Assembly (NCBI RefSeq): GCF_014191255.1
Contig: NZ_JACHWH010000014.1
Location: forward strand, 1-64,000
Length of the DNA stretch: 64,000 bases
Direction: 5' to 3'
From: Amycolatopsis bartoniae
Lineage (GTDB): Bacteria > Actinomycetota > Actinomycetes > Mycobacteriales > Pseudonocardiaceae
The position numbers and the translations under genes are program-made. Of the stretch, positions 57,950-58,846 are shown piece after piece (positions within the stretch are counted from its first letter, which is position 1; each line of letters opens with the position of its first letter). Below the pieces are notes generated by a model. That model was not told the DNA's origin. It worked only from the letters and a program-made list of their open reading frames with translations, and searched no databases.

Positions 57950-58846
57950 ATGGCCACGACCAAACGACCTGTTCTCGCTTTCATGAGCGACCTCGGTATC
58001 ACCGACGACTCCGTCGCGCAGTGCAAGGGGCTCATGCTCAGCATCTGCCCGGACGTGACCATCGTCGACGTCTGCCACACCATGACGCCGTGGGACGTCG
58101 AGGAGGGCGCCCGCTACATCGTCGACCTGCCCCGGTTCTTCCCCGAGGGCACGGTGTTCGCCACCACGACCTACCCGGCGACCGGCACCGGCACCCGCTC
58201 GGTCGCGCTGCGCATCAAGCAGGCCGCCAAGGGCGGCGCCCGCGGCCAGTGGGCCGGTTCGGGCGCGGGTTTCGAACGCGCCGAGGGGTCTTATATCTAC
58301 ATCGCGCCCAACAACGGCCTGCTCACGTCCGTGATCGAGGAGCACGGATACCTGGAAGCGTACGAGGTCAGCTCCACCGAAGTGATCCCCGAGCAGCCCG
58401 AGCCGACGTTCTACAGCCGGGAGATGGTGGCGGTGCCCTCGGCGCACCTGGCGGCCGGTTTCCCGCTGGAGAAGGTGGGCCGGAAGCTCGCGGACGACGA
58501 GATCGTCCGGTTCGACCGGCCCAAGCCCGTACAGGACGAGGACGGCGACCTCGTGGGCGTGGTGACCACCATCGATCACCCGTTCGGCAACGTGTGGACC
58601 AACATCCACCGCGAGGACCTGGAAAAGGCGGGCGTGGGCTACGGCACGGAGCTGACGATCACGCTCGACGAGGTGCTGCCGTTCCGGTTGCCGCTCAGCC
58701 CCACCTTCGCCGACGCGGGCCCGATCGGTTCGCCGGTGGCCTACCTGTCCAGCCGCGGATATCTCGCGCTGGCGCGCAACGCGGCGAGCCTCGCCTACCC
58801 GTACAACATCCAGGCCGGCATCCCGGTCCGCGTGCACGTCGCCTGA
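57950..58846 (+). CDS. flA: Fluorinase: 5'-fluoro-5'-deoxyadenosine synthase
   Basis: This enzyme joins fluoride to the 5' carbon of SAM, giving 5'-fluoro-5'-deoxyadenosine and methionine, the only known natural C-F bond-forming reaction type. The 298-residue protein is close to FlA of Streptomyces cattleya in length and sequence. Active-site residues are all present: Asp14 (FMSD), Trp48 (TPWDV), Tyr75 and Thr78 (TTYPAT), Ser156 (TFYSRE), Asp209, Asn214 and Trp216 (DHPFGNVW), Ser268-Arg269 and Arg276-Asn277. The loop of about 23 residues (about 90-112, with [16 protein letters not shown]) that separates fluorinases from the chlorinase SalL and from hydroxide-adding DUF62 enzymes is intact. 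It lies upstream of an antiporter, a dehydratase and an SDR in the same direction. Confidence 0.96.

Follow-up and report, generated by a model that had tools for sequence, protein, structure and literature searches.

The 64,000-base window analyzed here (bases 1 to 64000 of the 123,730-base contig C14, NZ_JACHWH010000014.1, of Amycolatopsis bartoniae, genome G000) contains a fluorinase gene, flA, at positions 57950 to 58846 of the forward strand, and the genes surrounding flA differ from those of the classic fluoroacetate/fluorothreonine pathway. The novelty is this neighborhood and not flA itself, which is only a new member of a group already known, one fluorinase having come from an Amycolatopsis. 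At the family level, the cluster appears to join to flA the gene types of the fdr genes of Streptomyces MA37 and of the salinosporamide 5-haloribose branch, which would replace the fluorothreonine route. The cluster probably converts 5-fluororibonate to 5-fluoro-4-hydroxy-2-oxopentanoate, with substrates and an order of steps that we infer.

As far as sequence tells, the product of 57950 to 58846 is almost certainly a fluorinase (5'-fluoro-5'-deoxyadenosine synthase), as a sequence-only reading of the window had proposed. The frame comprises 298 codons with zero stops; it is open further 5' to a GTG at 57290, but homologues start at ~57950, and GGGAG lies 8 bases 5' of the ATG at that position. 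The protein scored 591.3 bits against NCBIfam TIGR04507 (fluorinase; cutoff 400) and matched PDB 1rqp, the Streptomyces cattleya enzyme, with 547 bits and an E value of 1.2e-163 (phmmer). Over aligned columns, the protein was 80.2% identical to FlA of S. cattleya and 84.5% identical to the Nocardia brasiliensis protein (NobA), with which residues and loop position are shared, and the closest FlA found was that of Solihabitans (88%). All 18 positions checked in the alignment agree with S. cattleya FlA, whose D16, D21, W50, Y77, T80, F156, Y157, S158, N215, S269, R270, R277, and A279 correspond to identical residues D14, D19, W48, Y75, T78, F154, Y155, S156, N214, S268, R269, R276, and A278. The sequence-only reading had listed Asp14, Trp48, Tyr75, Thr78, Ser156, Asn214, Ser268, and Arg269 as active-site residues, and its numbering is right, because the aligned positions are all identical to those of S. 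cattleya. The 11 substrate-contact residues of FlA listed in the accessible part of PMC9234330 are likewise all identical, and the C-terminal RNAA motif named for fluorinases in excerpts of PMC12871659 is present (as ARNAAS).

The fluorinase loop matches that of S. cattleya residue for residue, and SalL, PDB 7ccg, and two SalL-like and six DUF62-like proteins in the alignment have no such loop, which bears out the earlier statement that the chlorinase SalL and DUF62 enzymes lack it. A scan of contigs returned 19 loci, 11 at 68 to 88% identity (treated as FlA) and 8 at 27 to 34% (DUF62-like), of which the tree used six of the latter and excluded L022 and L023, which are partial matches. In the phylogeny that the sequence-only reading had proposed as a check, the protein falls not with DUF62 or SalL proteins but inside a 13-row FlA clade (support 97/97), apart from the SalL clade (99/99), and groups with N. 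brasiliensis and Solihabitans (97/94); the DUF62 rows have long branches, against which the tree program cautions. As a SalL-type chlorinase or a DUF62 enzyme, the protein would still belong to the same superfamily, and FlA can act with chloride too (PMC9234330, in part), but the loop, S156, the RNAA motif, 591 bits against a cutoff of 400, and placement in the FlA clade (97/97) rather than the SalL clade (99/99) make such an identity scarcely credible, and it was rejected on alignment and tree.

The genome (7.76 Mb) has a single flA copy. At an E value of 1e-3, TIGR04507 was matched in 1 of 19 genomes of the genus, that of A. bartoniae. At 1e-20 it was matched in 4 of 200 genomes of the family, with two above the cutoff (A. 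bartoniae and G157); the G157 contig shares an identical stretch of 14,381 bases with a contig of Actinopolyspora mzabensis, and G157 was grouped with A. bartoniae in one family. A fluorinase from an Amycolatopsis is indeed known: Fam of Amycolatopsis sp. CA-128772, which reportedly shares 82% identity with FlA and has the same extra motif. By its published description, Fam has FlB, FlI, and FlH neighbors as here, but, unlike in A. bartoniae, no dihydroxyacid dehydratase or short-chain dehydrogenase (SDR) is mentioned alongside it in the portions of PMC9234330 available.

The genes around flA were assigned as follows, with coordinates beyond 64000 being those of contig C14, past the window.

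53588 to 54499, minus strand: flB-like phosphorylase (MTAP/PNP family), 303 amino acids (TIGR01694, 301 bits; cutoff 275)
54686 to 56128, plus strand: flI-like S-adenosylhomocysteine hydrolase, 480 amino acids, cofactor recycling (TIGR00936, 613 bits; cutoff 498)
56145 to 56945, minus strand: putative cyclase/hydrolase, possible lactonase, SalO/FdrD type (PF04199, 106 bits)
56947 to 57726, minus strand: YmdB-like metallophosphoesterase, proposed FdrA/SalN role (PF13277, 209 bits; PDB 4b2o, 136 bits)
57950 to 58846, plus strand: flA, fluorinase, 298 amino acids (TIGR04507, 1rqp, residues, loop, and tree)
58877 to 60448, plus strand: flH-like cation:proton antiporter (TIGR00932, 117 bits, below the cutoff of 238)
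60201 to 61871, plus strand: dihydroxyacid dehydratase, FdrB/SalH type, 556 amino acids (PRK00911, 746 bits; cutoff 644)
61868 to 62617, plus strand: SDR, FdrC/SalM type, 249 amino acids, overlapping the dehydratase gene by 4 bases (SDR family)
62850 to 64055, plus strand (the window ends at 64000): metK, methionine adenosyltransferase, supply of S-adenosylmethionine (SAM) (TIGR01034, 505 bits; cutoff 309)
64062 to 64649: adenine phosphoribosyltransferase
~64871 to 65551: first LuxR-type regulator (identified by reading)
65508 to 66584, minus strand: PfkB kinase
66909 to 67565: second LuxR-type regulator
67639 to 67947: DUF190 protein

Two kinds of neighborhood were found among the 12 FlA loci. 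A fluorothreonine transaldolase-like gene is present in the stretch at six (Paractinoplanes, N. brasiliensis, three Streptomyces, and a metagenome-assembled genome [MAG] of Proteobacteria), whereas five instead have an SDR gene near flA (A. bartoniae, Solihabitans L016, Actinoallomurus L009, Streptosporangiales MAG L014, and Chloroflexi MAG L013) and are here called ribonate type. The order metallophosphoesterase-flA-antiporter-dehydratase-SDR is the same in A. bartoniae, Solihabitans, Actinoallomurus, and the Streptosporangiales MAG. The phosphoesterase and dehydratase stand beside flA at four of the five SDR-type loci, and the cyclase lies within ~20 kb at all five. The phosphoesterase is a divergent neighbor of flA at 63 to 70% identity in the three other loci sharing the order, the dehydratase is 71 to 78% identical at three other FlA loci, the SDR is 67 to 72% identical at four, and the cyclase is 50 to 69% identical at the four other ribonate-type loci. 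The dehydratase scored slightly under the TIGR00110 (ilvD) cutoff (614 versus 618 bits). For the SDR, no model was above its cutoff among the best 25 matches listed, and none of the best 60 of 682 matching PDB chains was named SalM. The dehydratase type of A. bartoniae was found in 1 of 394 genomes of the class (its own only; E ≤ 1e-185; only the top three candidates scored per genome) versus 3 of the 11 other FlA loci (Fisher P = 1.5e-5). A two-by-two comparison of transaldolase versus SDR gave P = 0.0013, which is descriptive only, as these very genes had served to sort the genomes and the transaldolase for which Actinopolyspora was scored lies on a different contig.

The A. bartoniae cluster shares FlA, FlB-, FlI-, and FlH-like genes, LuxR-type regulators, and adenine phosphoribosyltransferase with the classic fl/nob cluster, but its genes do not include a fluorothreonine transaldolase, an MtnA-like isomerase, or FlK, the fluoroacetyl-CoA thioesterase. 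Of the 11 other FlA loci, 10 have on their contig stretches a PNP gene with 45 to 68% identity to the phosphorylase, and nine have an antiporter with 44 to 72% identity to that of A. bartoniae. The transaldolase query (1190 bits to TIGR04506) was searched genome-wide in 11 of the 12 FlA genomes (all except Solihabitans). Homologues of at least 57% identity occur in seven: those of the six loci, one being the query's own, and Actinopolyspora (G006), where the gene is on a different contig from flA. None of the four ribonate-type genomes searched (G000, G004, G008, and G009) has such a homologue, their best matches being ~30 to 34% identical and serine hydroxymethyltransferase-like; in A. bartoniae the best match is 30% over that part, versus 57 to 68% in six other genomes. 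The classic fluorothreonine cluster was rejected for this locus on that negative search. FlK was not found in the A. bartoniae genome at an E value of 1e-3, but its absence is not strictly defining, because genome searches also found none in G002, G003, and G010. No MtnA-like isomerase was seen among the cluster genes, a genome-wide search for it not having been made.

The proposed route would start with FlA, which would convert fluoride and SAM to 5'-fluoro-5'-deoxyadenosine and methionine. The FlB-like phosphorylase would then release adenine and 5-fluoro-5-deoxyribose 1-phosphate, the latter of which the YmdB-like phosphoesterase would dephosphorylate. Oxidation of the resulting free sugar to 5-fluororibonate would fall to the dehydrogenase, either alone or together with the cyclase, and the dehydratase would then yield 5-fluoro-4-hydroxy-2-oxopentanoate. 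MetK, adenine phosphoribosyltransferase, S-adenosylhomocysteine hydrolase, and the PfkB kinase look like enzymes that would recycle methionine, adenine, and adenosine, and the antiporter may serve ion handling.

Precedent for these steps comes from two systems. FdrA to -D of Streptomyces MA37 and SalN, SalH, SalM, and SalO of salinosporamide biosynthesis comprise phosphoesterase, dehydratase, SDR, and cyclase types, and FdrC was shown to convert 5-fluoro-5-deoxyribose to 5-FHPA; in MA37 the fdr and fl genes are on separate scaffolds (all according to the accessible text of PMC5947533). As in these systems, a metal-dependent phosphoesterase, dihydroxyacid dehydratase, SDR, and putative cyclase occur together in A. 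bartoniae, but all four types stand with flA, whereas the fdr genes are remote from it. Deletion of fdrA or fdrB in MA37 abolished a 19F signal at −227.80 ppm, for which 5-fluoro-4-hydroxy-2-oxopentanoate was suggested (PMC7408626, in the part available), the one paper found on 5-fluoro-4-hydroxy-2-oxo acids.

Several points weigh against the fluororibonate route. The assignment of the MA37 signal is unsure, because the same extract of PMC7408626 also gives −227.80 ppm for an anomer of 5-fluoro-5-deoxyribose. The likeness to FdrA to -D and SalN/H/M/O is one of gene type only. The 40-kb Chloroflexi stretch is without a dehydratase or phosphoesterase of the A. bartoniae type. In addition, the kinds of neighborhood do not track the FlA tree, which needs four changes for either label, at least two of them forced by starred branches. 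The idea that each kind arose with its own FlA clade was rejected for this reason, and, because the two kinds form no two FlA clades, flA seems to be a front end joined to different pathways.

A set of leucine biosynthesis-type genes begins 92 bases after the DUF190 gene and differs from the housekeeping set. The genome also has a full-length LeuA gene on contig C1 (54% identity) and two LeuC genes, each followed by LeuD, on contigs C2 and C3. On C14, past the window, the set and its neighbors are as follows.

68040 to 69602: LeuA, 520 amino acids
69599 to 70207: LeuD
70201 to 71118: branched-chain-type aminotransferase (PRK06606, 228 bits, under the cutoff of 279)
~71050 to 72012, minus strand: LysR-type regulator (by reading)
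72086 to 72469: RidA-like protein
72457 to 73644: major facilitator superfamily transporter
73732 to 74490: second SDR
74502 to 75899: LeuC
75896 to 76900: LeuB

The C14 LeuA retains R80, D81, E218, H285, H287, E317, and N321 of Mycobacterium tuberculosis LeuA. At positions 143, 167, 216, 250, and 252, which we take to form the pocket for the substrate side chain, four of five residues are changed (L143M, H167Q, S216A, and N250V), whereas L, H, S, N, and P are all present in the other LeuA of the genome. Pfam recognizes HMGL-like and IPMS_D2 domains only, with no LeuA regulatory domain; the match to PDB 1sr9 spans residues 15 to 459 of 520, and the short tail faintly resembles the end of that domain. 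Among LeuA copies aligned, L143M and N250V occur together only in A. bartoniae and G122, whose LeuA is the closest among 200 family genomes (67%). A 9-kb G122 contig carries RidA, aminotransferase, LeuB, LeuC, LeuA, and LeuD genes at 57 to 71% identity to the A. bartoniae set, and G122 also encodes a SalL-type chlorinase (344 bits to SalL and 444 to PDB 7ccg, an entry labeled as an RNA polymerase subunit in the PDB table). The chlorinase gene and a 62% homologue of the second SDR lie near the start of another contig, the first 399 bases of which are identical to the last 399 of the Leu contig; this overlap may reflect adjacency or a shared insertion sequence, and the 3-in-199 figure for G122 is post hoc. 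A further SalL-like protein, grouping with chlorinases, is encoded at G087:C7:417321-418052, and the surrounding 35-kb stretch has no further homologues of fluorinase cluster genes.

Similar sets are known from cyanobacteria (HphABCD) and plants (MAM/IPMI/IPMDH), in which, as here, a pocket-altered LeuA-type synthase without a LeuA regulatory domain (Pfam) occurs with LeuC/D, LeuB, and an aminotransferase; the A. bartoniae set differs in its link to a SAM halogenase. Plant MAM lost the regulatory domain and underwent pocket changes (PMC6603273 and PMC8468904, as far as available), and HphA has Ala for the Ser of isopropylmalate synthase at one compared position (in the available part of PMC12961565). 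By this model, LeuA, LeuCD, and LeuB would lengthen 5-fluoro-4-hydroxy-2-oxopentanoate, and the adjacent aminotransferase would aminate the product. Elongation and amination to a fluorinated amino acid such as 6-fluoro-5-hydroxynorleucine (C6H12FNO3; [M+H]+ 166.087, calculated by hand) are, tentatively, the likeliest next steps; without elongation, an equally tentative candidate of the same proposal is 5-fluoro-4-hydroxynorvaline ([M+H]+ 152.072). Searches of the open-licence literature yielded no case of an isopropylmalate-type set next to a fluorinase or SAM chlorinase gene and no fluorinated homologated amino acid.

Other observations tell against chain elongation of the fluorinated acid. 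P252 of the pocket is kept. Extra LeuA copies in G214, G029, and G043 have H167Q and changed positions 216 and 250; they occur with LeuB, LeuC, and LeuD and without an aminotransferase of the A. bartoniae type, in genomes without a TIGR04507 match above the cutoff. The pocket changes are therefore not special to halogenase genomes, because these copies share H167Q and a changed S216. The other FlA loci read showed no adjacent Leu set, the Chloroflexi locus having just a single LeuC-like gene, and no dehydratase or phosphorylase of the A. bartoniae type was seen near the G122 chlorinase in the stretches read.

The first alternative, itself doubtful, is that the cluster ends in fluoroacetate, a Dahms-type aldolase splitting the oxo acid into pyruvate and fluoroacetaldehyde for oxidation, with the Leu genes as unrelated neighbors. 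Solihabitans, Actinoallomurus, and the Streptosporangiales MAG each have an HpcH/HpaI aldolase gene at a distance of 8 to 9 kb from flA (the matched stretch of the MAG contains a single in-frame TGA), FlK lies 28 kb from flA in Actinoallomurus and 23 kb in the Streptosporangiales MAG, and the Chloroflexi locus has a 4-hydroxy-2-oxovalerate aldolase (448 bits; cutoff 286) and a relative of acylating acetaldehyde dehydrogenase. In those strains, aldol cleavage of the oxo acid may yield pyruvate and fluoroacetaldehyde, and the step after 5-fluoro-4-hydroxy-2-oxopentanoate would differ between strains. The A. bartoniae genome, however, has no HpcH aldolase above 39 to 40% identity, none near flA, and, as noted, no FlK. 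MhpE/F/D-like genes are present on its contig at 95.9 to 98.6 kb, but they are 37 kb from flA and 38 to 46% identical to those of the Chloroflexi locus, and their neighbors read like aromatic degradation genes.

A less likely alternative is that the Leu set never touches fluorine and elongates the 2-oxo acid of methionine (to homomethionine, as in plant MAM) or another 2-oxo acid, disposing of the methionine that the halogenase sets free. Methionine is a product of FlA and SalL alike, both host genomes carry the set, and the architecture of a LeuA relative without the regulatory domain and with a changed pocket, plus LeuCD, LeuB, and aminotransferase, is that of MAM and Hph (PMC6603273, PMC12961565, and PMC8468904, each in part). 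Nevertheless, MetK and the SAM recycling genes are already able to use methionine. It is more unlikely still that the set provides plain leucine free of feedback control, for instance to a glycopeptide-type cluster on the same contig. LeuABCD with a branched-chain-type aminotransferase, the DpgA, DpgC, and VanHAX-type genes at 21.8 to 33.6 kb of the window, and the similar extra LeuA copies in genomes with no halogenase above the cutoff would fit this role, but only one of the five pocket residues agrees with M. tuberculosis LeuA, compared with all five in the other LeuA of the genome, and the end of the VanX gene is ~34 kb from LeuA. A pathway to fluoroethylmalonyl-CoA as the building block of a fluorinated polyketide, on the pattern of engineered fluorosalinosporamide, would share its first steps with the salinosporamide 5-chlororibose branch but is very improbable, as no SalQ-like oxidoreductase, crotonyl-CoA carboxylase, or modular polyketide synthase was recognized on the 123.7-kb contig (gene calls read by their first 45 to 60 residues), where the DpgA gene represents a type III polyketide synthase of the glycopeptide kind; a fluorinated polyketide was rejected on the lack of a recognized modular synthase.

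Further features were seen in the window and at other loci. The similarity of the antiporter to its homologues stops near 60160, and its frame overruns the dehydratase start by 248 bases; antiporters called at other FlA loci are mostly ~442 to 478 amino acids long (530 in one), and a true overlap, an odd stop, or an assembly error are all possible. No fluoride riboswitch or other Rfam RNA reached the gathering score in the window or in L002, L016, L009, and L014. Glycopeptide antibiotic-type genes occupy 21803 to 33566 of the window, with DpgA (644 bits; cutoff 425), DpgC (735 bits; cutoff 530), and a VanH/D-Ala-D-Lac ligase/VanX set (VanX, 396 bits; cutoff 320). A flavin halogenase-like gene at 1645 to 3114 scored 288 bits to CmlS, under the cutoff.

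Fluorinase loci outside the Actinobacteria include that of the Proteobacteria MAG (L015), with a fluorinase of 68% identity, a transaldolase relative of 57%, and an MtnA-like isomerase gene nearby (by reading), and that of the Chloroflexi MAG (L013; Chloroflexota), where a fluorinase of 74% identity stands beside relatives of 2-oxopent-4-enoate hydratase, 4-hydroxy-2-oxovalerate aldolase, and acetaldehyde dehydrogenase. Isoleucyl-tRNA synthetase genes are present in the Actinoallomurus (L026:14521-17775; 849 bits to TIGR00392) and Streptosporangiales MAG (L014/L029) clusters at 76% mutual identity and possibly protect against a fluorinated amino acid. A methyltransferase-like protein is common to L016, L009, L014, and L013 or their extensions (54 to 69% identity between loci). 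Very long modular polyketide synthase-like open reading frames adjoin the fluorinase cluster of G157/Actinopolyspora mzabensis (L055/L056 joined, 9542 to 24870).

Biological formation of the C-F bond is very rare. In 2020, PMC7162832 (in the part available) called 4-fluorothreonine the sole fluorinated amino acid from nature. If the prediction for A. bartoniae is true, fluorinases feed at least two separate routes, those of fluorothreonine and fluororibonate, and the ends of the latter vary by strain. Chain elongation to a fluorinated amino acid would be one such end, and the relative with the SalL-type chlorinase would use the same module for a chlorinated counterpart. The enzymes would then also be new tools for making fluorinated building blocks.

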